From the NCBI GenBank assembly GCA_016281495.1, contig JAEEIU010000002.1, positions 124,001 through 188,000 on the forward strand: a stretch of 64,000 nucleotides of DNA, written 5' to 3'. The translations under genes and the position numbers were made by a program. Below, piece by piece: positions 8,348 to 56,793 of the stretch (position 1 is the stretch's first letter; every line of letters begins with the position of its first letter). Origin of the DNA: Treponema sp. (lineage in GTDB: Bacteria > Spirochaetota > Spirochaetia > Treponematales > Treponemataceae). Below the pieces are notes generated by a model, which worked only from the letters and a program-made list of their open reading frames with translations, did not search any database and was not told where the DNA came from.

Positions 8348-9724
8348 TCAAACCAAAGTTCCCTTGAATGTGTTTCCGTTCAAAGAATCAAGATGAACAT
8401 TGACGAATTTTCCTATAATCGAAGGCGATGACTTGAATGCAACACGCTGGTTTTGCTCGGTTTTGCCCAAAAGCTCGGTCTTGTCGTCGCGGCTAACAAT
8501 GTCTGCAAGAACCTTTATCGTGGACCCTACCCTCTTTGCCATCTGTTCCCCAGTTATCTCAAGCTGAAGGTCTATCACTTTCTGAAGCCTTTCCTTCTTT
8601 AGCTCAAGAGACACTTGATCGGGGAATTCTGCGGCCGGAGTTCCCTCTCGTACATTGTAGTAATACATGAAAGCCGATTCAAATTTCACTGTCCTCATCA
8701 GCGAAAGCACTTCCTCAAAATCTTCATCCGTTTCGCCGGGGAATCCAATCATGATGTCGGTGGAAAGTGCAAGTCCTGGAAGTTTTGCATAGAGCTTTTC
8801 CACAAGTTCAAGAAACTGCTCTCGTGTGTAACGACGGTTCATCCTCTTTAAAAGTCTTGAAGATCCATGCTGGACAGGAAGATGAATGCCCCTGCACAAC
8901 CTTGGGTCAGATGCAAGGACTTCAATCAGATCATCGGAAAAAAACTTTGGATGCGGGGATTCAAAGCGAATCCATTCAATTGGAGAAGACGTTTTATCCA
9001 GATGGGAAAGCATATTCTTAAGCAAGGCGGAAAAATCCGTTCCGTCCTGGGCCTTATATGAATTGACGGTCTGCCCCAAAAGAGTGACTTCCTTAACTCC
9101 CCTTTTACCAAGCACGTCAAGCTCATGCAGGATTCCTTCCACCGGGCGAGAGATTTCCCTTCCCCTAACATGCGGAACAATGCAGTAAGTGCAGAACATG
9201 TTGCAGCCGTTCATAATGGGAATGAAGGTTGAAAAAGCCCCCTCCTCATAGGAAGTTTCCGCAAACTGATAGACAGGCTCTTCGTCAAGGTCAACAGGTT
9301 CATCACCGTTTTCCACCGCAGAAATTATGTCGCCGAATTTGTTTTTTGAATAAGTTCCCACAACATAGTCGATTACAGGCCATTCAGTCTTGAATGTATG
9401 CAAAAGACGCTCCGCCATGCAGCCCATGACCACAAGGGTAAGAGGCACAGGTCCGTCCTTTACGTATTCCGCCGCCTTTTCCATGGACCTGGTCTTGGCA
9501 TCGGGTTCACAATTGCGCACCTTCTTTAATCCTGAATAAAATCCAAGCCGCCCGTAAATCCTTGTTTCGGCAGAAGCACGCACAGAACATGTATTGATAA
9601 TGACCATGTCGGCAGTAAAGCAGTCCTCCGCCTTTTTCCATCCCCGCGAAATCAAAATCTGTTCAAGAGAAGCGGACTCAGCAATGTTCATCTCGCATCC
9701 ATATGTCTCAAAAAAATAAGTCAT
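8348..9724 (-). CDS. miaB: tRNA-2-methylthio-N6-dimethylallyladenosine synthase
   Basis: MiaB is a radical-SAM methylthiotransferase that adds a 2-methylthio group to i6A37 of tRNAs reading codons that start with U. At 458 residues it has the usual three parts. The N-terminal UPF0004 domain carries three cluster cysteines (C10 in ETYGCEMN, the TCSVRA cysteine and the MGCMAERL cysteine). The radical-SAM motif is CNMFCTYC. A C-terminal TRAM domain covers about residues 385-455. The start ATG is preceded by AAGGA. It heads a minus-strand unit, with an extended -10 promoter upstream. Confidence 0.95.
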   Translation of the reverse strand: MTYFFETYGCEMNIAESASLEQILISRGWKKAEDCFTADMVIINTCSVRASAETRIYGRLGFYSGLKKVRNCEPDAKTRSMEKAAEYVKDGPVPLTLVVMGCMAERLLHTFKTEWPVIDYVVGTYSKNKFGDIISAVENGDEPVDLDEEPVYQFAETSYEEGAFSTFIPIMNGCNMFCTYCIVPHVRGREISRPVEGILHELDVLGKRGVKEVTLLGQTVNSYKAQDGTDFSALLKNMLSHLDKTSSPIEWIRFESPHPKFFSDDLIEVLASDPRLCRGIHLPVQHGSSRLLKRMNRRYTREQFLELVEKLYAKLPGLALSTDIMIGFPGETDEDFEEVLSLMRTVKFESAFMYYYNVREGTPAAEFPDQVSLELKKERLQKVIDLQLEITGEQMAKRVGSTIKVLADIVSRDDKTELLGKTEQNQRVAFKSSPSIIGKFVNVHLDSLNGNTFKGTLV

Positions 9725-9758
9725 CCTTTTTCCTTATCGTAAATCATCCAATGCGGGT

Positions 9759-9766
9759 ATTATAGC
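9759..9766 (-). promoter_or_regulatory. Extended -10 promoter of miaB
   Basis: On the minus strand TGCTATAAT is a TGn-extended -10 box. The -35 region is weak. The leader is about 28 bases and carries AAGGA before the miaB ATG. Confidence 0.5.
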
Positions 9767-9815
9767 ATAATTCTGTTTTTTATGGAAAGGCGGGTAATAA
9801 TTTTGATGAAAAAGA

Positions 9816-9938
9816 TTGTCACGCGGATTCGAGATTTCTACGAAATCTCTTTAAATGTTGGTTGTGTTGCTGATTTTTTATATCCTGCTGGATGGTCATT
9901 CCGAGCTTGACTCTGGGGAGTAGGGGGGAATGCGTCTC
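9816..9938. repeat. MITE-like repeat, short copy A
   Basis: The left end TTGTCACGCGGATTCG (9816-9831) runs into the hairpin GAGATTTC-TAC-GAAATCTC (9831-9849) and CTTTAAA. The right side has a GTCATTCCGAGCTTGAC segment and ends near GAATGCGTCTC (9928-9938), the reverse of an inner end seen in copy B. It lies between the LRR lipoprotein gene and miaB. No ORF. Confidence 0.6.
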
Positions 9939-9979
9939 ATAGTCGAATAACATTGATCAGGCATTTGGATTAAAAAAGA

Positions 9980-12900
9980 TTACTCACCAATAAGTCGTGA
10001 ACTCAGAGATCCGGCCACAGCATTATAATTGGAATTAGCAAAACCACTGGTAGCATTTAGATAAGCCGACCTTGCACTGGAAGGAACATATATCTTTAAA
10101 TTGGAATTGCAATCCATAAAGAGTTTATGCCCGTCATCAACTGCATTACCAATGGCCGGTGGAGTAGTAGATTTAAGGTGAACGCTAGTAAGCTGTGGAC
10201 AAAGCAAAAACCAACCTCCATCTAATTGCGTAAATTTAGCGGAAAGGGTTATGCTCTGAAGCGCTTGACAGCTGCTGAATGAACCATAGGAACTTTTCGT
10301 ATTAGGACCTACTACAGTGACATTAGACAAGTCTATCTGCTTAAGGTTTTGACAATTCCGGAAGTGATTTCCATTTCCATTTTCCTCAAATGTTGTAATC
10401 TGGGTAAGATTCGTTATGGTTTGCAGATTTTGGTTGAACATAAAGCAACGTGGTGCAAGAGTTGTAACATCGCTTGGCAAAGTATAAGAAGTACCGGATT
10501 TTGCTGAAGGATAATAAATCAAAGCCTCTTTTTTGCCTGTACTTGAATTTTTTCGATATAATATTCCATTTTCAGTTGCAAATACAGAATTTGCGCCAGA
10601 AATTTTAACTTCGGTCAACGTCCTATTGCCCCACAAAGCATTAGAAAAATCAGTTGCATCTTGATACTTATTTGGCAATGTAATTGAGGTAATTTGAGGT
10701 TTATCTATTACTGGAATAGCTGTCAAAGTTGTTCCTGACAAATCAAGACTAATAGTTGCATCAGATGGAATATCATTTCTATTAAGGAAAGCTGTTAATC
10801 TGTTATAGGTTATGCTAGAATCTGCCATAAACACATTATTGCCAGATGCTATAGCAACTGTTGATACATTACTAGAAGTCAAGCTTGTTACTTTTTCCAG
10901 TTTTCCTGTAGCAGAAGAAACAGCCCAAGCCTGCGAGCCATCTGGAACCACAGCCAGGGAAGGAGCATAATTTTTTCCTGTTGAAATAATTGTGGTATTT
11001 ACATCATATGAAGAAGGACAAACAGTAGCCACGACACCATCAGTACAAGAGGATGGTGGAGTAAGGTCTGTAAGAGTCATTCCAACACCATTCAAATAAA
11101 CATCATTGTTTTTTGCGCTTCCTCCATACGGAATATATGCAGAACCGCTCATACTGAACTGCCTTGCCGCATAAATAGCACCACCGTTATTACCAGCAAT
11201 GTTTGACTCTATGGTACCGCCGTTCAAGGCAAAGCTTGAGCAACTACCCCATATATATATTCCACCGCCTTTTCTATCAGCATGATTGCCCTTTATCGTT
11301 CCTCCACTCATGATTAATGATGAGCTTCCATTATCCTTGTTAACAATACCTCCGCCTAATCCAGCATTATTATTGGTGCTTCCATCTTTCACGTAATTGT
11401 AAGAAATTTCTCCGCTTGCAATTTGCAAGGTTCCATTATTCGATATTCCACCACCATCAAAAGTTGCATAATTTCTCTTTACTCCATAATTGGTACTAAT
11501 TGGCTCAGGAACGCCAAGAGCACTGTACCCTAAGTAAACTTTACTGGTTTCATCCCAATTGCAAATTCCACCGCCGTAATGAGCCTTGTTTGCCCAGCTG
11601 TTTTCATCGGCTACGTTAAGGTTGTCAGTAGCATCACCTATCAAGACATCTCCGTACATGAAGAGATTTGCATTAGCACATACTAACACACCACCGCCAC
11701 TTTGTTCGGCTGTATTTCCGGTAATCCAGGCTCCGTCTCCTAGTTTCAAAGTTCCATATTCGTTGAGTCTTATTCCACCGCCATTTCTATTATAGCCGCC
11801 TGTTATTTTAAGATGCTCTATTGTGACTGGTACCGTAGTGGACACAGTAAGTGTAGTACCTGTATTACTTGAATTCCTATTTCCATTAAGACTTCCATTA
11901 GAGTTACTATACTCGGTCAAAGTAAGTGCTGAAGCCATGCCGTTGAGTACATTGCTGATTGTCTGGGGACCTTTTACTTCGCCGATTACATTGATTGTGT
12001 AATTTCCAGTAGATTTATTATAAGCTGCCAATTCAGTTACAGCCTTTTGAACCGTGGCATAGGGCTTATTAGGGGATCCGTCACCCGTAGTGTCGCTTCC
12101 AGCGTTGGATAATGCTGATGAGGATTTTATATAAAGTCCGTCTTTGTGTGCTTTTATGAGATAAGTTGCTACGGCAGAATCATTGTAGCCTGGTTTTGTT
12201 CCATATACCGTAATGCAATATTGACCGAATGGCTTTGTAAGAGTAACTGTGTCGTCTCCTGGTACCTCTTGCGCATTAGCAGCTTTTGAATATCCCTCGC
12301 TGATTGTATATACAAATGCAGCACCAGCAGAATAAACGCTTTCATTGTCCGTCGTCTTATTCGGTAGGCAAATCTTTATGGTGGCGTTATCTCCAGTTCC
12401 AAGTTCCACATAGTTATTGGCAGATGTTGAACATTCAGTCTCAGTTCCATTTTCAACTTTCTTTACAATAGGAGGAGCCAGTGTTGCATAAACAAGATTC
12501 AAATTATACTCACGAAGTTCAGAATCCTCGCATCCATTATTCTTTGCCGATACAAGAAGATGATATTCTCCTTGTCCCTGTATCTTTACAGAAACATGAT
12601 CACCTTCATTCATAGGGGCTATCTCTAGCTCATCATATCTAAAGTTATAAAGCCTACACACTACAGTCACATTTCCAGTAATTGGATCTCCCATATCATC
12701 AGTTGTTGGCTTATATATTTTCACTGTGCTGTATAGTTGATCCTCATCAATATGAAGGGTATTTACCGTAGCGCCAGAAACAAGCGAATTGCCGTCATTG
12801 TCTCTTACAACAGGTGCTGCAAGTTTTTTGGTAGAAATACTTATGGTATTAGGATTCTTTAATCCTGCCAAATCCGTATAACCGATGGTATATGATTTAT

Positions 12901-13760
12901 CTCCTGCCAAAACAGGCTCATTAGTACTATAATACATTACCGTGCCATTGCTGTCACTCTCAGGTGATTGTCTGTTTATTTCCGTAAGATTAATTGGAGG
13001 TATTGATCTGAATGCCGGATCAGAAATACTCATCGTTCCGCCAGAAATGCTCACAGGGTAACTCGCATCATTTATGGTAATGTATTGTATATCCTTGTGT
13101 ATTCCACCCAGTTGCTGGCTAGAAGGACATTTAAAAGCTATTACATACTTATTATAGGCTTTCATAATTGCCGCCTCACTAATCACAGGCGGTTTTGAAT
13201 TGCACTTGAGCTTTAGGGAAAAATTTTGGAGGTTTCCGTTATAGGGATGCTTGATTTGTATCGTTTTACCGATATCGTCTCCACCATCATGAGTCTTAAG
13301 ATAATCATCACTGGCATTACAGGGGTAAGTAAAATGAAGAACCGTCGTGTCATCTGCATCCTGTGTAATCAAATGATTATCACCTGAACCAATTTCTTTT
13401 ATGTATGGAGGATTTTTACTATAATCGTCCCGGGGTTTGGAGCTCGATTCACTTAGACCACTATCACCCAGTTCATAATGATACGGATTCCTCATGAAAA
13501 GGGTTACGGGAACGTCCTGGCCGCTCGGTATGCACAGGTTTCCGTCCTTGTCGTAGTAGGATTCAACACCTTCAATTTGAAATTTGTCTATGGCAATTTC
13601 ATTGGTCCATTTTTCAAAATAATCACGCACAGGCTGCTGCCAGAATTCACAGGAAGAAAGGAAAAGGGATGCAAGTAAAAAAAAGTATCAGCGGAACAAC
13701 CCTGCAAATTCTTGGGGTGTGAGTGGGGGCATAAGTGTATAGATGTCTGTTACTCCTCAT
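9980..13760 (-). CDS. Large surface lipoprotein, beta-helix plus BspA-type LRRs; frameshifted signal peptide
   Basis: The long reading frame (1,216 codons from GTG 13630) lacks its own signal peptide. Upstream in the same frame the codons read LLASLFLSSCEFWQQP, a clean lipobox, but no start codon precedes them. In the neighbouring frame an ATG at 13760 with GGAG upstream runs into the same stretch. Both join into one lipoprotein if the T8 tract (13677-13684) had seven Ts. Residues 1-480 of the long frame resemble stacked Ig-like domains. Residues about 500-870 are Gly-rich beta-helix repeats of the GGGI/GGGV type (Pmp or adhesin-like). Residues 950-1210 are BspA/LRR_5 repeats. It probably lies on the cell surface and binds host or matrix. 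The T8 tract suggests on/off switching or a sequence error. Confidence 0.75.
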
Positions 13761-13833
13761 CATACGCTCCAACTTTTATAACTAATAAAGTTTAAACAGA
13801 AAGGCCAAGCCCGCCTGCAAACATCCTACAATA

Positions 13834-13862
13834 ATTATACTTCAATATCGGCACAAAAACAA
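13834..13862 (-). promoter_or_regulatory. Predicted promoter of the LRR lipoprotein
   Basis: On the minus strand TTGTTT (13857-13862), 17 bases, TATAAT (13834-13839). It gives a leader of about 65 bases ending in GGAG before the ATG at 13760. This placement supports translation starting upstream of the T8 tract. Confidence 0.5.
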
Positions 13863-13906
13863 GTAGAAAGTGGAAAATTTGCCGTGCAGGCTATATTGGG
13901 AGGAAA

Positions 13907-14230
13907 TTGTCACGCGGATTCGCATGTTGCTTTAGCAACAACGTCAAATCCATTCCTTACAGAAAGGGCTCGTAGAGACGTATTCGAAATGCCTACGGCA
14001 TTTCTTTAAAGGATTTTTTGTTGTGATCTCTCTTGATATATGCGGGTATTAGCTAATCAAGTAAATGTAATGTCATCCCGGACCCGATCCTGGATCTTGT
14101 GTAAAAAGGTTAGAACATAGAAAGATTCCGAGTCAAGCTCGGAATGACCCTGCAACAAGATGAAAACTCCAACCAGTTCAACATCCTAAATTTAAAGGAA
14201 TTGCGTAGCAATTCCGAATCCGTGTGACAA
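13907..14230. repeat. MITE-like repeat, long copy B
   Basis: A 324-bp element with inverted ends TTGTCACGCGGATTCG (13907-13922) and CGAATCCGTGTGACAA (14215-14230). Each end carries a hairpin: TGTTGC-TTTA-GCAACA (13925-13940) and GGAATTGC-GTA-GCAATTCC (14197-14215). An inner end-like copy, GAGACGTATTCG with GAAATGCC-TAC-GGCATTTC (13976-14004), lies inside, plus two CATTCCGAGCTTGAC-type hairpins. No ORF over 60 codons fits. It stops 2 bases from the folE2 stop codon. Confidence 0.7.
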
Positions 14231-14232
14231 CC

Positions 14233-15018
14233 CTACAAATCATCCGAAGAAGTATAAGCGTAGGCGTTGTGGTTGTGGATGCTTTCGTAGTTTTCGCATT
14301 CAACGCTGAACCATGAGAATGGTTTTTCGCATTTGTCAAAATTCTTGAGGCCTAGGCAGATTTCCCTTACGACGTCTTCTACAAAACGGGGGTTGTCATA
14401 GGCATGCTCCGTGACCCACTTTTCGTCGGGGCGCTTCAGGATGCTGTAGAGGGAGCATGATGCACAGCTTTCGATTAATTCAATCACATCCTCAATCCAA
14501 AAGAGGCTTGTGTTCTGCAGCTTTACCGTAACCAAACCCCGCTGATTGTGCGCTCCGTATTCAGAGATTGCCTTGGAGCATGGACATACCGTTGTTACAG
14601 GAACAGAAACCGTTACGTAAAAGTTATGGCTTTTTTCGCTTACCTCACCCTCATACGAGCACGTATATTCCATTATGCTTTCCGAACCGGAGACCGGAGC
14701 CTTTTTTGTCATAAAGAAGGGAAATTCCATCGTACCAAACGCGCGTTCTGCAGAAAGTGACTGCCTTATGTCCTCCAGCATCAACAGGAACTGCTTCATG
14801 CCCAAATCCCTGTGATGCCTGTGGAAGTTTTCTATAAAGCGTGACATGTGGGTTCCCTTGTAGTCATGCGGAAGGTTCACAAAGAGGTTTACAGTTGCGC
14901 TTGTCTGCTGCTTGCCGTTCAATTTGTCCAAGACCAAAACCGGATACCTGAGACCCTTTACCCCAACCTTCTTAAGCGGAATTTCACGTGTGTCCGGTGT
15001 ATTCTGAATGTCAATCAA
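14233..15018 (-). CDS. folE2: GTP cyclohydrolase IB
   Basis: FolE2 converts GTP to 7,8-dihydroneopterin triphosphate, the first step of folate synthesis, and can use metals other than zinc. At 261 residues it carries the family motifs GTHMSRFIE, the TTVCPCSKAISEYGAHNQRG segment with the metal-ligand cysteine, and EDVVREI near the C-terminus. The start is a TTG at 15018, seven bases after GGAG, and it overlaps the end of the PIN gene by eight bases. Translation is therefore probably coupled to the toxin gene. The element directly after its stop is MITE-like copy B. Confidence 0.93.
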   Translation of the reverse strand: MIDIQNTPDTREIPLKKVGVKGLRYPVLVLDKLNGKQQTSATVNLFVNLPHDYKGTHMSRFIENFHRHHRDLGMKQFLLMLEDIRQSLSAERAFGTMEFPFFMTKKAPVSGSESIMEYTCSYEGEVSEKSHNFYVTVSVPVTTVCPCSKAISEYGAHNQRGLVTVKLQNTSLFWIEDVIELIESCASCSLYSILKRPDEKWVTEHAYDNPRFVEDVVREICLGLKNFDKCEKPFSWFSVECENYESIHNHNAYAYTSSDDL

Positions 15019-15433
15019 TTTTGCTCTCCATTTGTCTTAAAAAATCTAACGGCGTAAGCACAGGAACTGGAGAAAAACTGTAATCCTTTGTATTTCTGGT
15101 AATAATCACTTTTATACCAGCTCTTTCGGCACAGAAAGCCTGTACAGCATCTTCAAAATCATTCATCGGGGAATTGAAAGCTTGCTTTATCTGTTTTTTT
15201 GAAACAGGGAGGATTTTGAATTTTGAAAAGAAGTCAGATAAAAGTTTCTTTTGTGATTCTGAATTAGGGTACGTTTTTCTTGTAATATAAAGTGTATCTG
15301 TAACCGTAGTAGCAGACACACATGGAGTACAATTCTGAAATGCGAATTGAACAGCACCAAATGACGCTTCAATAAACTGTTCTCTTTTATTGATAATGTC
15401 AATAATAACATTTGTATCAACTAACACTTTCAT
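15011..15433 (-). CDS. PIN-domain ribonuclease, probable VapC-type toxin
   Basis: This 140-residue protein begins KVLVDTNVIIDI, the first acidic motif of PIN domains. A central NDFEDAVQAFCAERAG motif and a late IITRNTKDY stretch follow, as in PIN toxins of type II systems and the wider PIN_3 group. Acidic residues D6, the DFED aspartates and D117-like Asp would bind Mg2+ for RNA cleavage. The start ATG overlaps the antitoxin stop (ATGA). Downstream it overlaps folE2, an unusual place for a toxin. Its target is unknown. Confidence 0.85.
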   Translation of the reverse strand: MKVLVDTNVIIDIINKREQFIEASFGAVQFAFQNCTPCVSATTVTDTLYITRKTYPNSESQKKLLSDFFSKFKILPVSKKQIKQAFNSPMNDFEDAVQAFCAERAGIKVIITRNTKDYSFSPVPVLTPLDFLRQMESKID

Positions 15434-15645
15434 TTTGACATTCTTCTCTCTTCCAGCAAAGCTTCCGCATTTACTTCAGGGGAAATGAGTCCTACCACAG
15501 CATCCAATGCATCCAGTTTTTTTTGTAGGCTTCGGGAAATCTTTTTCTGCTTCTTTTCCGGCAAAATTTTCAATCCAGAAACAGACGCTTCCTGTTTGTA
15601 TCGGGATGGATTTGCGAAAAAATCTGAATATGATACTACAAGCAT
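15430..15645 (-). CDS. Antitoxin partner of the PIN toxin
   Basis: The ATG at 15645, preceded by AAGGAGG, gives a 71-residue protein (MLVVSYSDFFANPSRYKQEA). The earlier in-frame start near 15720 has no ribosome site and would run into folD. The N-terminus resembles Phd/YefM-like antitoxins, with an SYSDFFANPSRY helix-strand segment. The charged C-terminus (LLEERRMSK) would bind the toxin. The antitoxin-then-toxin order and the ATGA overlap are typical of type II pairs. Self-repression by a dimer at the upstream gap (15646-15709) is likely but no operator was identified. Confidence 0.75.
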   Translation of the reverse strand: MLVVSYSDFFANPSRYKQEASVSGLKILPEKKQKKISRSLQKKLDALDAVVGLISPEVNAEALLEERRMSK

Positions 15646-15709
15646 AATGAATTCCTCCTTGGAAAATTGTATCACAAAAAGCGTTATTATTCGAGGGTTG
15701 TTTCCCGAT

Positions 15710-16588
15710 TCATTCTCCAATCATTCTCTCGGCGGACTCCAGGGTGTTGTATATCAGCATGGCGATTGTCATGGGGCCTACTCCTCCCGGTACAGGCGTG
15801 ATGAACGAAGCTTTTTCCTTTACGGTGTCAAAATCCGCATCTCCCACAAGCCTGAATCCACTCTTTTTGCTTGCGTCGGGAATTCGGTTGACTCCCACAT
15901 CGATTACGGCGGCACCTTCCTTTATCATGTCGGCGGTAAGCGTATGGGGATGACCCGTACACACAACGATGATGTCCGCTTCCCTTGTGATTGAAGCCAA
16001 ATCCTTTGTTCCCGTGTGGCACATGGTTACGGTGGCGTTGCATTCACGGCGGGACAGGAGGAGCGTCATGGGTTTACCGACTATATTGCTGCGTCCAATG
16101 ACTACCGCGCGCTTTCCGTTGGTTTCGATTCCGGCCTTTTTCAGGAGAACAAGAACTCCGTGGGGTGTACAGGGCAAAAATCCCTTTCCTCCGGTAACAA
16201 GGTTTCCCACATTTACCGGGTGAAAACCGTCCACGTCCTTTTTTGGGTCAATGGCATTGGTCACTTTTTCTTCGTTTATGTGCTTTGGAAGGGGCAGCTG
16301 AACCAGTATTCCGTGAACCGTATCATCGGCATTCAATTCCCCTATAAGCTTGAGCAGTTCTTCCTCTGTAGTGGATTCTGGGAGTTCCATGCTTTTGTCC
16401 GCCATTCCGGCTTCGGCAAGGGCCTTTCTTTTTCCTGTGACATAGCTTACTGATGCGGGGTTGTTTCCCACCAGAATAACGGCAAGACAGGGAATTATGC
16501 CCTTTTCCTTCAATTCTGACACCTTTTTGGCAACATCAGCCTTAACTTCGGCCGCAACCGCTTTTCCGTCGATAATTGTAGCGCTCAT
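15710..16588 (-). CDS. folD: Methylenetetrahydrofolate dehydrogenase / cyclohydrolase
   Basis: FolD interconverts 5,10-methylene-, methenyl- and 10-formyl-THF. At 292 residues the length is normal. Catalytic residues Y49 and K53 lie in SYVTGKRKA. The signature [12 protein letters not shown] and the [10 protein letters not shown] motif of the NADP-binding domain are present, then [11 protein letters not shown] at the C-terminus. A TTGTAA-17-TACTAA promoter candidate precedes it on the minus strand. It begins a minus-strand group of folD, the toxin pair and folE2, so folate genes flank the toxin pair. Confidence 0.96.
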
Positions 16589-23513: not shown

Positions 23514-26500
23514 TTATTCGTCATCAGATGGAATTTCCAGAATAAGTTCAACTGCTTCTTCTGATATTCCAAGACTGTTGGCGATTTCGTCGTTTGACCA
23601 GTGCATTCGCTTGAGTTCCTTTACGTTCTCGCGAATCTGTGGTGTTATGCCGCTGCCCTTCTTTGCCTTTTCCTGCTCCTTCTTCTTCTTGGTGACATTG
23701 GTTCTTGAAATTGTCTGCAATACACCAATCTGTTTGTCTGCATTTTTGGCAAGCTGCTGCAAGCGTTCCTCGGTTCCCAGAATGCCTGTCTTTGTCTCGT
23801 TGAGGGCATCCATGCGTTCCTCGGTTTCATCCAAAATCTGCTGAAGTGAAGACAGCTTATCCACAGCATCATTGATGTTGTCGTTGTGCTTCATGATCAG
23901 ATTTATGCCGTCCTGAAGCTCTTCCAGCTGTCCCGGCAGATCATCCAACTGTGTGTTACATGAGGCAAGCCTTCTTTCAAGGTCATGAATGCGGTCTGCC
24001 GTTCTGTCAACATTATTGGCGACTTTTTCTATAGTCTCTGCCTTTGTTTCAATTCTGTCGTACTGAGCCTGAATGCCGTTAAGTGAATCCTGGAAGTTGC
24101 GGACCGTTACCTGCATGTTCACAAGCTTGTCGTTTGTGACGTTAAGTTCTGCAATCTTGTCATCCATTGAATTACTCAATGCCATCAGGCGGCTGAACTT
24201 TTGCTCAAGACTTTCAAGCTGATTCTTCTGAGAGTTAAAGTTAGATATGCGGTTGTCAATATCCGCGCTCATCTGCTGAACCTGCTCAATCATCTGGCGC
24301 ACGTTGTTGACCTTAACCTCATAGCTTGCAAATCCGTTTATCTTTGTCTGAAGATTTTCTATGGATTCGTTAAGCTGTTTCTTAAGCTGGTCTGCCTTGT
24401 CAAAGAGTCCTGTCTGAGCCGTAAAGCGTGTAATGCCCTTGTTGATTTCATCAATGCGAATCTGAAGTGCATTAGTGTCATCGTTCAAGTGCTCTATCAT
24501 GCGCTGATATGCCTGCTTGTCTGCATCAACCGTATCCTTGAGGTTATGCTTGAGTTCCTTGATCTGGCGGTCTGCCTGTCCTGTTGCATCCTGAAGCATG
24601 CCCTGTGTACTCTGAACCATTGCCTCGTAACGTTTCTGCAACTGCTGCAAAATCTGTCCTGAGCGATCCTCATACAGCTTGAGTGCTGCCTCTGCCTTGT
24701 CGGTAAGGATATCGATGTCGTCCTGTACCTTCTGTCTTGATTCCTGTGTCTTTGAATCAATATCCGCATAGCTCTGCTGCTGTTTCTGCATAAAGAACTG
24801 AAGGTCCTGCTCATACTTTTCGTTTGTTTCCTTGAGCTGCCTTGCAATCTGAATCTTGAAGTCATTTACGCTCTGAATCGTCTCGTCCATGATTGCGGTA
24901 TTGTTCTTATACTTTTGGTCAAACTCTGCCTTTATGTCCACAAACTGTGCGTTGATGTTGCGGAGGTTTTCTGCCAGCTGTTCAGTAACCTTGCGGTTGT
25001 ATCCGTCGCTTTCCTGCTTTAAGACTGCATTGGCCTGTTCCGTCGTGCTCTTTAATGCTGTACGGTACTGCTCGATGAAGTCATGCAGACGCTGGTTTAC
25101 AGTGTTAATCTGATTTTCGATTGTACTCTGACCTGTCTGCAATGCGGCCTGGAAACGTGATTCCTGCTCGGTTGTCTTTGTCTGAATCTCGTTGATGCGG
25201 TTCTTGAGTTCATCTGCATAACGTGTCTCCAGATCCTTGCGGCTTTCCTCATAGGTATTCGTGAAGTTTTCTATGCGTGTATCAAACTTGTTCTTCCATT
25301 CGTTGAGCTGCTGGTTAATGGCCTCCTCACGCTTCCTGAGGTCCATGGTGAATGTATCCTCAAATACCTTAAGCTGAGAACTGGTCGTTGAATATGATTT
25401 TTCCTTAAGCTCTTCAAGAGTAACTTCGAGTGTTTCAACTTCTTCCTTGAGCTTGTCGCTTCTGGATTTGAGTGAAGTCTCAAAGTTGACGTGATTCTTT
25501 GAAACGCTTGTGGTGAATTTTTCAAAGTCTCCAAGAACACGTTTCTGCGCCTGATCCATGATTTTTCTGAGGGCATCTTCAAGCTTGTCAACATCAGCAC
25601 CTGCAGTGTTAAGCTTGTTAAAGCGGTAGTCCATTTCCTGCTTGTACTTGTCCAGCTGCTTGTCCAAACCAGCAAGGAATACAGACTGCTTGTTCTCATA
25701 ATCCATGGAAATTGACTTCATTGCCTTGCCCAGGCTTTCATCAAACATGACGAACTGTTCCTTCATTTCCCGGTCAAAGTTTGCAAGCTTATCGGCGGAA
25801 AGTGTCGTCTCTTGGTTGATCCTTTCTGCAATGGCATGAGACTCTTCTATTGATTTTTCATACTGTGCCTTTGTATCAGCTATGGCATCTTCTACCTGAG
25901 TCCTCATAAGGTCTGCGCGGTTCTGAACGTCTGCAAGTGAATCGGCGATGTTCTTCTGCATGTCAGATACAAACACCTGAAGCTCTGACTTGTACTTGTT
26001 CAAATGGGCAACAGACATCTCCTTGTACTTTTCGTAGGATGATGCTTCCTTTTGCTCCGCACGGCTGAATGCCTCATCAAAGAGACCGTCATATTTCTGC
26101 TGAATCTCCTGAACCTTAACCTGTACCCTGCTCTCAATGTCGTCAAGGCGGCTAGTGTTTCCGATTGTTGTCTGCTCGAGCTCAGCGGCTGTCTCACGTG
26201 CATTATTCAATGTTGCAAGAACGGAATCCCTGAATTCAAGAATCTGTGAATTGGTGTCGTCCTCAAGCTTTTTGGTCTTTAACTCAACTGCCGCCTCAAG
26301 GGTATTCACCTTTTCCATCAAATCGGAAGTGATGTCATTGACCTTTCTTGTAATCGCCTCAGATGCATCAGAGTTCGTTTCCCTGACTGCAACCTCAAGG
26401 GCCGATGTCTTTTTATCAAGTTCCTCCTGAAGACGTGATACGATTCCCGTAACATTAGCCTCCATATCAGAAGCGGACTGGTTAACCGCAAGATCAAGAT

Positions 26501-29500
26501 TCTCTGTCCTTTCCTTTACATTCTTTGTAAGTGCTTCAATTTTGGCGGCAAGGTCTTTTTCAAGTGCACTGGCATTTACTTTTATTGCCTTTGTAATTGA
26601 AGCTGCCTTATCTGAGTATATCTTTGAAAGACTTGCAAACTTTGTGGTATATGACTTTTCAAGAGAAGCCGTCCTGTCCTTGATGTCGCGCTCAACAAGT
26701 TCTGTCCTTTCGTTGGCGTTTTTCTCCATCGTGCTTGTGCGGTCTTCAATAAGCTTAAGCAGTGAATCTGTCTGACCTGTAACGGCTACAGAAACATTCT
26801 GAGTCCTTTCCCTTACAGAGTTTTCAAGATTTGAGATAAGTTCCTCAACAGTTTCCTGGAGAGAAGATGTCCTGTCGTTTACCTGACCGGTGATGTTGTC
26901 CGTTACATCGCGTACTGACTGTGCCACTGCTTCGGTACGTGCATTAAGATCCTGTTCAAGGCTTCCGGTCTTTTCGTCTAGGGCCTGGGCAAGATTTTCC
27001 GTCCTTTTGTTCAGTTCCTGTTCAAGGCTTCCGGTCCTTACGGTAAGCACATGCTCAAGGTTTCCTGTCCTTTCGTTAAGTGCCTGCTCAAGGTTTCCTG
27101 TCTTAATGGCAAGCTGTTCCGCAAGGGTCTGGGTCTTTTCGATTAAATCATCGTTAAGGCTGCCTGTGCGTGAATCAACCTCTTCCTGCAATGCACCTGT
27201 CTTTTGGTTAATAAGATCCTCAAGTGCCTGAGTCCTTTCGTGTACCGTGCGTTCAAGTGAATCTGTCTTGTTGATTACGTTATCGACGATTACGGATGAA
27301 CGTTCATTTACAAGGTCCTCAAGAGGAAGTATCCTTTCGTTAACCTGGTTGGTAAGTGTCTCCGTGCGTCCGAATACATCATCCTGCAAAACAGCAAGGC
27401 GTTCGTTAACAGCATCCTCAAGGTCATCTGTCTTTGTCTGCAGGCTGTCCTGCATCATCTCTATCTTTGAATAAACTTCATCCTCAAGAGCTCCGGTTTT
27501 TGCAGTGACAAGTTCCTGCAATGATCCAGTGCGGTCATTTACAAGATCATCAATGCTCTGGATTTTCTGCTGCAGATCCTGCTCTATTCCGCCGGTCCTT
27601 GATTCAATCATGTTCTGAAGGCTCTGTGCCCTGTCAAGAATCTTTCCCTCAAAATTCTGAGTGCGTTCGGCAAACTGTTCCTCAAGAGTACTTGTACGGT
27701 TGCCCAAAAGATCTTCAAGAGATCCAGTACGCTCCTCTATCATGTTCTCGATGTTTTCTGCCCTGTCCATGATGTTGGATTCAAAATCCTGTACACGGTC
27801 GTTGAATTCCTGCTCGATTGAAGAAGTGCGTGTCTCAAGAAGCTCGTGCATTGAATCCGTGCGGTTTTCCAGCATTTCCTGAAGTTTACCCGTGCGGCTT
27901 TCGATCATCTCCTGCATTGAACCGGTCGTATTATCCAAAAGCTGCTGAAGGTTTCCGGTGCGATCCTTGACCATTCCGTCAAGATTCTCCGTCTTTTCAT
28001 TAAGTTCTGATTCTATGCTCTGAATGCGCCTGCTGAATTCCTGGGCAAGATCACCAGTACGTGTATCCAACAGGGTATTCATTGAACCGGTCTTGCTTTC
28101 CAAAAGATCTGCAAGGTTTCCGGTGCGGTCTTCTATCATGTCTTCAAGAATCTGGGCCTTGTCCATGAGGTTGTCCTCAAAATCCTTGGTCCTCTCTGTA
28201 AACTGACGCTCGATGGTTCCGGTGCGTGATTCAAGAAGTTCCTGCATTGAGTCTGTACGGTTTTCAATCATCTCCTGCATTGAGCTGGTCTTGTTCTCCA
28301 ATACTTCCTCAAGGCTTCCTGTACGGTCTTCTATTGCATCCTGGAGTCTGGACGTGCGCTCCTCAATCTCATCCTGAAGTGTGGCGGTCTTATCCTCAAG
28401 CTCGCTCTGCAATTCTGCGGTGCGGTCCTCAAGGTTCTGCGTATATGTGCTTGTAAGCTCGTTGTACTGTTCGATTGCGGTATCTGCACGTGAGCGGACA
28501 TCCTCCACCATTGAGTTAAGGCGGTCAACAACCTGAATCTCAAGTGCTCCGGACGTATCCTTGATCTGTCTTTCAAGATCGCTTGTGCGTTCCTCCAATG
28601 CAGCCTGAAGTTCAGCCGTACGTGTTTCGATATTGCGTGTATATGCTCCTGTTGTCTCGGCATACTGTGCGATTGCCTTGTCAGCCTGTTCCTTTACCTC
28701 TGCAATCATGGCGGAAATCTTCTGGTTGATTCCTACCTCAAGGGATCCTGACTTGTCGTTTATCTGGTCAGAAAGTATAGCCGTCCTGTCCTGCAATGCC
28801 TGATACAGCTCCTTTGTGCGGTTGTCAACATCCTGCTCATAGCTTGCGGTGGTGCTTCTGTAACGCTCGATGGCATTTTCTGTTTCCTGCTGAACGTTGA
28901 ACGTCATGTCATCCAGCTTCTGTTTGAGCAATGCCTCAAGAGCCTCGGTCTTTTTCTTTATGTCAGAACTGATTGTGGTTGCACGTGTATTCAAATCACC
29001 TGTCTTAAGCCTGATGTCGCCGTCAAGTGTGGTAAAGCGTTCGTTGAATGCATTTGCAAGTGAAGTCGTCTTTTGCTTGATGTCGGTATCCAGAGAATTT
29101 GTGCGTGTCTCAAGCTGTTCTGCAAGTAGGGATGTTTTTTCCGTAATCTCGTTTTCAAGATTCTTGGTAATCTCGTTGAGTGAGGTAGCCAAGGCAGATG
29201 TCTTTTGCTTAAGTTCTGTGCTGAACTCTGAATTCTTGTCGCTGAGCAAATCAGTAAGTTCTGTAACACGTTTCTTGATTTCCGCATCAAGTGCAGAAGT
29301 CTTTTCGTTGAATGATGATGACATCGCAGAGATACGCTGCTTGCAGGAAGCCTCAACAGTCTGTGTCCTGTTGCTGACGTACTCCTCAAGATCATCGGTG
29401 CGCTTGGTGACAGATTCTTCCAGGGAGTCTGTACGGGTTGCAACTGAATCCTCAAGTTCCTGTGTCCTCTGGTTATAGAGGCTTTCAAGATTCTGGGTGC

Positions 29501-31931
29501 GGTTTTCAAGCTGGCCTGCAAGGTCATCAAGACGGCGGTAGATTGTCTCTTCAACTCCACGTGTCTTTGAGTCAACCATTTCGGCAAAGCGTCCGGTCTT
29601 TCCCGTAACCTCTTCTTCAAGCTCATCGGTGCGTGTGCGGATCTGATCCTCAAGTGAGCGTGTACGTGTCTCCAATGCAACAGTAAGTGCGCTGGTCTTG
29701 TCGTTGAGTGTATTTTCGAGCCACTGTGTCTTTTCGCTAAGTGATGTGGTAAGGGTTTGAAGAACCTGTCCGACTTTCTCTTCAACATCATGTGTGCGTG
29801 TTTCAACAGAATTGGTAAGTTCCTCAACAGTGTCATCAACAGAAACGTCAAAGTCATTTGTCTTGGCCTGGATGGAATCTGTCATCTCCTGAATCTTGTT
29901 TGTAACGGATTCCTCAAGTTCCTGTGTACGTGTATGAACCGCCTCGGCAAGATAAGAAGTCTTTTCATTAAGTTCTTCCTCAAGTGAGCCTGTGCGGGTG
30001 TGCAATTCATCAGTAAGATTTGTAATCCTCTGGTTAAAGTCACTTTCGATATAATCAGTCTTGGATGTAAGGCTTTCGATAACTCCGCTAGTTTTTGCAG
30101 TAACTGCCGAAGTGATTTTCTCAAGGGTAGAGTTGACAGAGTCTTCAAGATTCTGAGTACGCTCGTTAACTGAATCCTCAAGGTTCTGGGTGCGTTCTTC
30201 CACAGAAGTTTCAAGATTCTGCGTGCGTTCCTCAACTTCAGAAGAAAGGCTTTCTATCCTGTTCGTTACGTTTTCTTCCAGAGTCCTTGTGCGGTCTTCT
30301 ACAGAGGTCTCAAGGCGTTCGGTAAGGCTTGCAACATTTTCTTCCAGAGTTGAAGTCCTTAGTTCAACAGATGCACTCAAATCTTCGGTGCGCTGTGTTA
30401 CCATTGACTCAAGATTGTTCAGGCGCTCTGTAAGGTCAGAAGAAAGGGTGTCGGTGGTGTCATAAACATTGTCCTCGATGGCCTTTGTGCGTTCCTCAAG
30501 GGAAGCGGAAACATTTTCCATTTTCTGAAGGACTGAATCTTCAACTTCACGCAAGCGGTCCTCAACCTCTGAGTTAAGGGTACCGGTCTTCTCGTCAATC
30601 TCTGAATAAATCCGGCTTGTCCTTTCGGTAAAGTCATCAACAAGAACCTTTGACTTGTCGGTAAACATAGAAACAAGGTCGTCCGTCTTTTCCTGATATG
30701 TATCCTCAAGTTCCTTGGTATGTTCCTTGAATGAGCGTGAAAGGTTTTCGTTTCTTTCCTTATATTCATCCTCAAAGTCTTTTGCACGCTGCTTGAATGC
30801 CTGTACAAGATTCTGAATCTTTTCGTTGAACTGGGATTCCAGATCCTGTGACCTTTCCTGGAACATCGATGCAATGCTGACTGAGTTTTCGTCAAATGCA
30901 AGGGCAAGGGCCTTTGTCTTTTCGTTGCATGAATTGTCAAGGGCATTGGTTCTGTCAACAACAAACTGCTCAAGGTTTTCAAGACGCTCGGTGAACTTCT
31001 TGTTGATTGTATTTGCCTGTCCCAAAAGCTGGGCGGAGATTTCTGCCATGCGCTGGTTGTATTCTTTTTCAAATGCCTTTTTCTGACCGTCAAGCGATGC
31101 GTTGAAGTTTTCCGTCTGCTCGTTGATGCTTTCCTGTGCGTTCTGGATGCGGCTGTCGATGAGTGCCTGCAGCTGCTTTGTCTGTATGCCAAGTTCTTCC
31201 ATGAGAGCGGCGCTTCGTTCATCCGAATTCTTCTGAAGCTTTTCAAATGCGGCGTCTTCAAGGCGGTTGGCCCTTTCGGCTGCATTGTCATAGGTATCCT
31301 TTATGTCTGCGGCAATCTTGTTCATGATTACGCGGCTTTCTTCTATTGCATGCTGTGTAGAATCTGCGATTGACTGGGCGCGGCTTTCGTATTCTTCCAG
31401 AAGTGAATCGCCCAAATGCTTGAGTCCGTTCTGGTTTGATTCGGTAAATTTATGTACAAGCGCCCCTATCTGCCTGTCGATTGAAGCCACCTTCTTGTTC
31501 TGGTCATTCAACCTTCCGTTAAAGACATCGATGACGTGAGCCTCGTCCTTTACCTTCTGAAGGTTTTCCTCTACCGCCGTGGTCATTTCCATAAGGTTGT
31601 GCAGGACCTCATCGTAGGAATCGATTTTGTCGGTGATGTAGTTGACCTGCTCTATCGGATCCTGAAGGCCAGCCACCAGCTTGTCAAATTCCGCCTTCTG
31701 CTGGTCCAGTCTCTTTACGGCTGCCTTGGCCTGGGCATCCTTGCTTTCAAGCTCGCTCCGCAAAAGCTGGATATTGTCTTTTTCGGTTTTGAAATAATCG
31801 TCAAATTCTGCCTGACGCCTGTCGGCATACTTTTTGACCTTATCCATAGCATTCTGACTTTTGGTTACCTGAGTAATAACAATACTGATAACAGCAGACA
31901 GAGCCGCTGACACTACGATAGCTAGAATCAT
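23514..31931 (-). CDS. Giant spirochaetal hendecad coiled-coil protein (SpiroCoCo-like)
   Basis: The protein has 2,805 residues. An N-terminal membrane anchor (about 2-22, ILAIVVSAALSAVISIVI) is followed by heptad coiled coil to about residue 259. Residues 260-1894 consist of about 148 consecutive 11-residue units with consensus (E/D)(R/K)T-x-x-L-E-x-x-(L/V)-x, broken only by a 7-residue step (986-992). Residues 1895-2750 return to heptad-like coiled coil. The C-terminus (IRENVKELKRMHWSNDEIAN, then LGISEEAVELILEI) is a small helix-turn-helix-like module. This fits the SpiroCoCo coiled-coil family of spirochaetes. A fully helical rod of this length would be several hundred nanometres long, consistent with a membrane-tethered filament or ruler in the cytoplasm. 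That role is inference. Confidence 0.88.
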   Translation of the reverse strand: MILAIVVSAALSAVISIVITQVTKSQNAMDKVKKYADRRQAEFDDYFKTEKDNIQLLRSELESKDAQAKAAVKRLDQQKAEFDKLVAGLQDPIEQVNYITDKIDSYDEVLHNLMEMTTAVEENLQKVKDEAHVIDVFNGRLNDQNKKVASIDRQIGALVHKFTESNQNGLKHLGDSLLEEYESRAQSIADSTQHAIEESRVIMNKIAADIKDTYDNAAERANRLEDAAFEKLQKNSDERSAALMEELGIQTKQLQALIDSRIQNAQESINEQTENFNASLDGQKKAFEKEYNQRMAEISAQLLGQANTINKKFTERLENLEQFVVDRTNALDNSCNEKTKALALAFDENSVSIASMFQERSQDLESQFNEKIQNLVQAFKQRAKDFEDEYKERNENLSRSFKEHTKELEDTYQEKTDDLVSMFTDKSKVLVDDFTERTSRIYSEIDEKTGTLNSEVEDRLREVEDSVLQKMENVSASLEERTKAIEDNVYDTTDTLSSDLTERLNNLESMVTQRTEDLSASVELRTSTLEENVASLTERLETSVEDRTRTLEENVTNRIESLSSEVEERTQNLETSVEERTQNLEDSVNERTQNLEDSVNSTLEKITSAVTAKTSGVIESLTSKTDYIESDFNQRITNLTDELHTRTGSLEEELNEKTSYLAEAVHTRTQELEESVTNKIQEMTDSIQAKTNDFDVSVDDTVEELTNSVETRTHDVEEKVGQVLQTLTTSLSEKTQWLENTLNDKTSALTVALETRTRSLEDQIRTRTDELEEEVTGKTGRFAEMVDSKTRGVEETIYRRLDDLAGQLENRTQNLESLYNQRTQELEDSVATRTDSLEESVTKRTDDLEEYVSNRTQTVEASCKQRISAMSSSFNEKTSALDAEIKKRVTELTDLLSDKNSEFSTELKQKTSALATSLNEITKNLENEITEKTSLLAEQLETRTNSLDTDIKQKTTSLANAFNERFTTLDGDIRLKTGDLNTRATTISSDIKKKTEALEALLKQKLDDMTFNVQQETENAIERYRSTTASYEQDVDNRTKELYQALQDRTAILSDQINDKSGSLEVGINQKISAMIAEVKEQADKAIAQYAETTGAYTRNIETRTAELQAALEERTSDLERQIKDTSGALEIQVVDRLNSMVEDVRSRADTAIEQYNELTSTYTQNLEDRTAELQSELEDKTATLQDEIEERTSRLQDAIEDRTGSLEEVLENKTSSMQEMIENRTDSMQELLESRTGTIERQFTERTKDFEDNLMDKAQILEDMIEDRTGNLADLLESKTGSMNTLLDTRTGDLAQEFSRRIQSIESELNEKTENLDGMVKDRTGNLQQLLDNTTGSMQEMIESRTGKLQEMLENRTDSMHELLETRTSSIEQEFNDRVQDFESNIMDRAENIENMIEERTGSLEDLLGNRTSTLEEQFAERTQNFEGKILDRAQSLQNMIESRTGGIEQDLQQKIQSIDDLVNDRTGSLQELVTAKTGALEDEVYSKIEMMQDSLQTKTDDLEDAVNERLAVLQDDVFGRTETLTNQVNERILPLEDLVNERSSVIVDNVINKTDSLERTVHERTQALEDLINQKTGALQEEVDSRTGSLNDDLIEKTQTLAEQLAIKTGNLEQALNERTGNLEHVLTVRTGSLEQELNKRTENLAQALDEKTGSLEQDLNARTEAVAQSVRDVTDNITGQVNDRTSSLQETVEELISNLENSVRERTQNVSVAVTGQTDSLLKLIEDRTSTMEKNANERTELVERDIKDRTASLEKSYTTKFASLSKIYSDKAASITKAIKVNASALEKDLAAKIEALTKNVKERTENLDLAVNQSASDMEANVTGIVSRLQEELDKKTSALEVAVRETNSDASEAITRKVNDITSDLMEKVNTLEAAVELKTKKLEDDTNSQILEFRDSVLATLNNARETAAELEQTTIGNTSRLDDIESRVQVKVQEIQQKYDGLFDEAFSRAEQKEASSYEKYKEMSVAHLNKYKSELQVFVSDMQKNIADSLADVQNRADLMRTQVEDAIADTKAQYEKSIEESHAIAERINQETTLSADKLANFDREMKEQFVMFDESLGKAMKSISMDYENKQSVFLAGLDKQLDKYKQEMDYRFNKLNTAGADVDKLEDALRKIMDQAQKRVLGDFEKFTTSVSKNHVNFETSLKSRSDKLKEEVETLEVTLEELKEKSYSTTSSQLKVFEDTFTMDLRKREEAINQQLNEWKNKFDTRIENFTNTYEESRKDLETRYADELKNRINEIQTKTTEQESRFQAALQTGQSTIENQINTVNQRLHDFIEQYRTALKSTTEQANAVLKQESDGYNRKVTEQLAENLRNINAQFVDIKAEFDQKYKNNTAIMDETIQSVNDFKIQIARQLKETNEKYEQDLQFFMQKQQQSYADIDSKTQESRQKVQDDIDILTDKAEAALKLYEDRSGQILQQLQKRYEAMVQSTQGMLQDATGQADRQIKELKHNLKDTVDADKQAYQRMIEHLNDDTNALQIRIDEINKGITRFTAQTGLFDKADQLKKQLNESIENLQTKINGFASYEVKVNNVRQMIEQVQQMSADIDNRISNFNSQKNQLESLEQKFSRLMALSNSMDDKIAELNVTNDKLVNMQVTVRNFQDSLNGIQAQYDRIETKAETIEKVANNVDRTADRIHDLERRLASCNTQLDDLPGQLEELQDGINLIMKHNDNINDAVDKLSSLQQILDETEERMDALNETKTGILGTEERLQQLAKNADKQIGVLQTISRTNVTKKKKEQEKAKKGSGITPQIRENVKELKRMHWSNDEIANSLGISEEAVELILEIPSDDE
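26250..31154 (-). repeat. Array of about 148 degenerate 33-bp units (hendecads)
   Basis: Reading the protein in 11-residue steps from SRIQNAQESIN (residue 260) to LKTKKLEDDTN (residue 1894) keeps the phase throughout, apart from one 7-residue insertion (TISSDIK). Typical units are ERTQNLEDSVN, DRTGSLEEVLE and SRTGSLNDDLI. Longer super-repeats are visible: a 66-residue block occurs about twice and a half (residues 1015-1180), and a block of about 130 residues around SMQEMIE is repeated near 1205 and 1330. Confidence 0.85.
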
Positions 31932-31982
31932 AAATGATACCTTTTAGAATATATCTTTTTATCTGTGTATACAGACTACACG

Positions 31983-48679: not shown

Positions 48680-48805
48680 GAAGAAAATCAATTCAGAATT
48701 AAGAATGCATAATGCATAATTAGGAATTATGAATGTAGAATTATGTATTGAAGCTGTCATGCTGATTTGCTTTGTGTCTTGCTGGATGGTAATTGAAGAA
48801 GAGGT

Positions 48806-49069
48806 TTGTCACACGGATTCGAAATGCCTACGGCATTTCCTGAAAGTGGGGTGTCTGGCTGGTTGGTGTTTTCATCTTGCTATTTGGTCATTCCGGGCTT
48901 GACCCGGAATCTTAGCGTTACGTGTTTTGTAGATGTTGCCTCTTGCTGGCTGGGTTAAGAAAAGTCGATTCCTATACGCCAGCTTATCCCAAAAAACTTC
49001 CACTACCCCCCAGAGCCAAACAAAAATCCTTTAAACAAATTGCGTAGCAATTTGGAATCCGCGTGACAA
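48806..49069. repeat. MITE-like repeat, copy C
   Basis: A 264-bp element in the 541-base gap between ispE and the acidic gene. Inverted ends are TTGTCACACGGATTCG (48806-48821) and GGAATCCGCGTGACAA (49054-49069). The end hairpins are GAAATGCC-TAC-GGCATTTC (48821-48839) and CAAATTGC-GTA-GCAATTTG (49036-49054). A CATTCCGGGCTTGACCCGG hairpin lies inside. The rest of the gap (48680-48805) is AT-rich with short AATTATGAAT-type repeats and no ORF. Confidence 0.7.
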
Positions 49070-56741: not shown

Positions 56742-56793
56742 AATCAGCAGCTGGTAATTGACTGAACAAGTACCAACTGCTGATTTTTTTTTT
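56742..56793 (+). terminator. Rho-independent terminator of the lipoprotein gene
   Basis: AATCAGCAG(C)TGGTA (56742-56755) pairs with TACCA(A)CTGCTGATT (56771-56785), followed by ten Ts. It lies between two convergent genes and the T-run touches the end of the minus-strand gene. Confidence 0.85.

Follow-up and report, generated by a model that had tools for sequence, protein, structure and literature searches.

When the reading frame of a surface lipoprotein gene is broken in the signal peptide, at eight consecutive thymines (T8), has the gene been switched off, or has it been lost? The question is raised by a locus on the minus strand of a 64,000-nucleotide stretch of DNA from an uncultured gut or rumen Treponema (GenBank assembly GCA_016281495.1, contig JAEEIU010000002.1, positions 124,001 to 188,000), here called the window, to which all coordinates refer unless a contig is named. 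An earlier note on the window had taken the tract for a site of slipped-strand phase variation of a large surface antigen. The analyses presented here strongly indicate that signal peptides in this gene family and in this lineage undergo slipped-strand switching, mainly through G and C tracts. Switching of T8 itself is plausible, on evidence that is circumstantial.

The break is delimited by four features read from the sequence:

13647 to 13763, minus strand: leader frame, with starts at ATG 13763 and ATG 13760, 38 codons long and ending at TGA 13649-13647
13677 to 13684, minus strand: the T8 tract TTTTTTTT, which sits at the frame break, within the signal peptide's hydrophobic core
13688 to 13690, minus strand: TGA that closes the lipoprotein frame on its upstream side and bounds the possible site of the frame change
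9980 to 13687, minus strand: lipoprotein frame, 1,235 open codons, with its first possible start at GTG 13630

Translation from the ATG gives MMRSNRHLYTYAPTHTPRICRVVPLILFFTCIPFPFFL before the TGA is reached. The lipoprotein frame, which reads LLASLFLSSC followed by EFWQQP, is open upstream only as far as its own TGA, and from there down to GTG 13630 it contains no ATG, GTG or TTG. Because the two frames disagree and each is bounded by a stop, the frame change is confined to 13687-13650. Within this 38-nucleotide interval T8 is the sole homopolymer of at least five bases, and thus the one such run in the 5' coding region that could set the frame. Past the break, 1,216 codons stay open, with no second lesion among them, and the other two frames hold 78 and 133 stops. 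On this reading of the frames the present allele cannot yield an exported protein from its normal start, and the break sits at or adjacent to T8 in a gene whose remainder is intact. What makes T8 noteworthy is its coincidence with the sole frame break of an otherwise intact gene, and not its rarity. The earlier note had located the break at this tract, downstream of ATG 13760, and had predicted that a protein of about 1,200 residues continues in the other frame; all of this is borne out, with a second ATG at 13763.

Two other sites were considered. A break at the C5 run further upstream (GCCCCCA) is ruled out by the TGA of the lipoprotein frame, which lies downstream of that run. GTG 13630 can be dismissed as the normal start, given that it lies past the lipobox and would remove the signal peptide.

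The signals needed for expression of the gene are retained, as had been proposed for both the promoter and the ribosome-binding site:

13767 to 13770, minus strand: Shine-Dalgarno sequence GGAG, read from the sequence
13834 to 13863, minus strand: family promoter element CTTGTTTTTGTGCCGATATTGAAGTATAAT with a perfect TATAAT, a motif common to siblings in three species

The promoter motif CTTGTTTTTnnCCGATAnTGTATTATAAT precedes many family members in three species and is retained, with one additional base, in front of the window gene. The core of the motif has three exact matches in the genome, all three of them upstream of siblings.

The product is a predicted lipoprotein of roughly 1,250 residues, with a family-specific N-terminal domain and C-terminal leucine-rich repeats of the BspA type:

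13649 to 13651, minus strand: lipobox cysteine codon (LFLSSC), in the lipoprotein frame
12782 to 13651, minus strand: conserved family domain that immediately follows the lipobox, about 280 residues long (alignment A1)
10166 to 10498, minus strand: BspA-type leucine-rich repeats spanning residues 1045-1155 when numbered from GTG 13630 (PF13306, E-value 9e-14; relatives in the PDB 4h09 and 4gt6)

The lipobox cysteine is invariant in alignment A1, as expected from sequence for a bacterial lipoprotein. The C-terminal LRR_5 repeats are shared with known BspA-type surface proteins (PF13306; 4h09, 4gt6), from which the window protein differs in its N-terminal family domain, for which no Pfam family scored above the cut-off. 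Of the beta-helix and leucine-rich repeat architecture that had been suggested for the protein, the repeats are confirmed and the beta-helix is not, there being no Pfam match for it and a single-sequence structure model whose confidence is low, the middle region included (predicted local distance difference test, pLDDT, 41). Five members with the family domain occur in the same genome, and across the genus 80 of 200 genomes have matches to it. The closest homologue in a near relative (L101 in genome G009) has about 40% protein identity and carries T7 at the matching place in its signal peptide, in frame.

Evidence that leader homopolymers may act as switches comes from the rest of the family. 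We compared 105 family 5' ends, 100 from other genomes and five from the window's own. A G or C run of at least seven bases is present in eight of these leaders (G8-10 or C7-8). Three of the eight are in frame, each with G9 (L108, L127 and L138), and in five the early ATG is out of frame (L139 with G10, L150 with G8, L168 with G9, L106 with C7 and L004 with C8, the last of which has an additional, weaker in-frame ATG further down). Out-of-frame leaders thus account for five of the eight members with such a tract and for two of the 97 without, namely L007 and the gene in the window (p = 1e-5 by Fisher's test, on counts from the leader survey in which L163, with a weak GTG only, and members with no clear Shine-Dalgarno sequence before the in-frame ATG were scored as in frame). 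G runs of at least seven bases are enriched in the leaders, with six observed versus 0.9 in dinucleotide shuffles (no more than 3 in any of 100 shuffles). Support for homopolymer switching thus does come from the family, but by way of G and C tracts. In a genome-wide search the leader motif TAYACNYTNGTNCC was found in a leader only in the two poly-C lipoproteins.

Similar tracts occur elsewhere in the lineage. C or G runs of at least eight bases number only 13 in the genome, and four of the 13 lie in the first codons of genes for secreted proteins or lipoproteins: C9 in frame in the lipoprotein gene L054 (C36:83912), C8 out of frame in L004, G8 out of frame in the lipoprotein gene L061 (C60:6994) and G8 in frame in L051 (C23:156302). 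L051 encodes a secreted GH5 cellulase and has its G8 in the signal peptide. Its orthologues in two near relatives, G009 (L323, 95% DNA identity) and genome G149 (L338, 85% DNA identity), both have G9 and are out of frame, and the sequence directly past the tract matches between L051 and these orthologues. The G8/G9 difference in the cellulase is the clearest sign of switching in our data, and T8 is not involved in it.

Three further tracts were observed near gene starts. The lipoprotein gene L053 (C29:189773, just past the end of the window) has C8 in its leader and an out-of-frame ATG without a Shine-Dalgarno sequence. G10 stands about 35 nucleotides upstream of an outer-membrane-type protein gene (L048, C20:299226), and G8 occupies the Shine-Dalgarno position of a lipoprotein gene with a GTG start (L059, C53:22874); both are possible transcriptional or translational tracts.

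From the perspective of its history, the locus is recent:

9737 to 14229, no strand assigned: lineage-specific insertion of 4.5 kilobases (kb) carrying the lipoprotein gene, between folE2 (14233-15018) and miaB (8348-9724); the empty site is seen in L201
9815 to 9831, minus strand: copy of the interspersed repeat CGAATCCGCGTGACAAT close to the insertion's miaB end (the genome holds 82 copies when up to 2 mismatches are allowed)
13906 to 13922, minus strand: second copy of CGAATCCGCGTGACAAT, upstream of the promoter, found in the sequence

We regard the lipoprotein gene as an insertion because in the sister species (L201, Treponema sp. RGIG10242, from yak rumen) miaB directly follows folE2 and the gene is absent. 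The blocks that flank the insertion on both sides have about 79-87% DNA identity between L201 and the window, and folE2 also adjoins miaB in several further Treponema. G009 is a closer relative than L201 (93% identity over 47.4-60.9 kb of the window); whole-genome protein searches found no near-identical copy of the lipoprotein in it, and its folE2-miaB site was not located in about 80 sampled stretches. No record of the same species was recovered by a plasmid DNA search, by a contig scan with the protein or by a contig scan with folE2, the last of which gave the sister species. The gene is thus a recent accessory acquisition, as would be expected of a surface protein that can be switched or of a dispensable gene that was lost shortly after it arrived. 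A 37-nucleotide inverted pair lies at the edges of the insertion (9877-9913 and 14130-14166), and copies of CGAATCCGCGTGACAAT are also found upstream of the poly-C lipoprotein genes L004 and L054.

Several observations weigh against a switch at T8, and some of them would suit a recent permanent null, in which an ordinary single-base indel in the T run disabled a newly inserted accessory gene that is now decaying, with no selected switch. By itself T8 is an ordinary tract and weak evidence: there are 871 T8 sites in the 3.2-megabase genome (overlapping sites, both strands), and the 105 family 5' ends hold eight, compared with 9.4 expected from shuffles. Four relatives carry a T8 within the coding leader and read in frame, and T8 is not significantly associated with the OFF state (p = 0.10). 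Where coding A/T7-8 tracts could be compared with two close relatives, their length was kept or the tract was interrupted by a substitution; differences in length were confined to non-coding tracts, including a T10 at 56784. The sibling L007 (C13:11162-11908 in the same genome) has an early ATG out of frame with its lipobox and is without any homopolymer; it appears to have either a fixed break or an atypical start. The genome also encodes mutL, so slippage at T8 is expected to be better repaired, and to occur at a lower rate, than in Campylobacter. A null is consistent with this lack of enrichment and with L007, as well as with the absence of the insertion from the sister species and of a near-identical copy from the closest one. 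It fits less well with a coding sequence free of other lesions, with an intact promoter and Shine-Dalgarno sequence and with siblings whose leader tracts are found in both states, and we consider it somewhat unlikely.

Two other explanations are an error in the assembly or sequencing and slippage during transcription. Were the eighth T an error of assembly or sequencing, the gene would be intact in the cell; draft genomes do contain single-base errors in homopolymers, and this assembly consists of 61 contigs. The window contains 17 A/T runs of at least eight bases, most of them inside gene-sized open frames and about ten clearly internal. Because most of these other tracts sit in intact frames, a general homopolymer error of the assembly is not supported, and an error at this tract seems improbable. 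Transcriptional slippage at T8 would give some mRNAs of other tract length, and with them a low and constant amount of full-length protein from unchanged DNA. A/T runs of about nine bases are known to support slippage of this kind, which has also been suggested at eight As in some insertion-sequence genes (PMC1088944). Eight bases is nevertheless below the usual effective length, and the family does not conserve the tract as it would a programmed site; slippage in the transcript is in our view very improbable. Slippage by the ribosome would require a +1 or -2 move, which is not the common type and counts further against an explanation at that level.

We favour, with a confidence that stops just short of even, the reading that the window carries an OFF allele produced by slippage at T8, which is probably reversible, and that the gene is probably phase-variable. 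It is supported by a break interval that holds T8 as its only run of five or more, by an intact gene with its expression signals, by the siblings whose leader tracts occur in both states, by the G8/G9 cellulase, by the in-frame T7 of L101 and by the precedent of Campylobacter coli flhA described below. As the sequence shows, ribosomes that start at ATG 13763 or 13760 lose the frame at T8, within the signal peptide's core, and terminate 38 codons from the start. The frame break most likely arose by slipped-strand mispairing at the tract, and reverse slippage would restore export. T8 would then likely be a weak, slowly switching member of a set of leader homopolymers. The proposal of phase variation made in the earlier note is upheld in part: the leader G and C tracts in both states and the G8/G9 cellulase argue for it in the family and lineage, and at T8 itself the ordinary frequency of the tract, the in-frame relatives, the tractless L007 and the unchanged length of other coding A/T7-8 tracts in the relatives compared argue the other way.

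Known systems offer both parallels and differences. The account of Park et al. 2000 given in PMC2831843 describes a poly(T) tract in Campylobacter coli flhA that changes from T8 to T7 at 3e-4 and from T7 to T8 at 7e-6. As described there, the frame is lost at one tract length, the rest of the gene is intact and the tract lengths are the same as those considered here; switching was measured in C. coli, whereas one allele is known for the window locus, and flhA is a flagellar gene rather than a lipoprotein gene. Campylobacter jejuni is described as being without functional mismatch repair (PMC3928116), and differs in this respect from the mutL-bearing genome studied here. Listeria inlA, Bacillus swrA and Mycoplasma hominis vaa likewise have an A/T homopolymer near the 5' end that causes a reversible frameshift, in some cases in a surface protein (PMC2831843); reversion was measured in these genes, and their proteins are unrelated to the window lipoprotein. 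In Treponema pallidum, a spirochaete of the same named genus, poly-G phase variation affects tpr genes, TP0126 and tprL, so that homopolymer length influences outer-membrane proteins (PMC7864442). Those poly-G tracts lie in promoters and act on transcription, whereas T8 lies in a coding signal peptide and would act on translation. Our literature search found no paper on phase variation in rumen Treponema; the treponemal phase variation described in the papers found concerns the poly-G promoters of the syphilis spirochaete (PMC7864442).

Other parts of the window also deserve mention. A PIN-domain gene and a small neighbour lie between folD and folE2 (15011-15720), absent in the sister species L201 and present in L203. 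A short stretch at 48697-48903 recurs on several G009 contigs and is probably an interspersed repeat, and at 23514-31943 the minus strand holds a very long open frame, some 2,800 codons in length.

We consider it possible, rather than probable, that gut Treponema randomise the export of large surface lipoproteins and of at least one secreted cellulase by means of leader homopolymers. Such tracts would have arisen repeatedly (C, G and here T), with each cell showing a different subset of a lineage-specific and frequently reshuffled family. On its own, T8 is an ordinary though plausible case, and it has been productive in drawing attention to the switching of signal peptides among gut Treponema. 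If a gut or rumen lineage does vary its exported proteins in this way, phase variation would extend to commensals and to the degradation of plant polymers, through slippage inside the signal peptides of lipoproteins and a cellulase.
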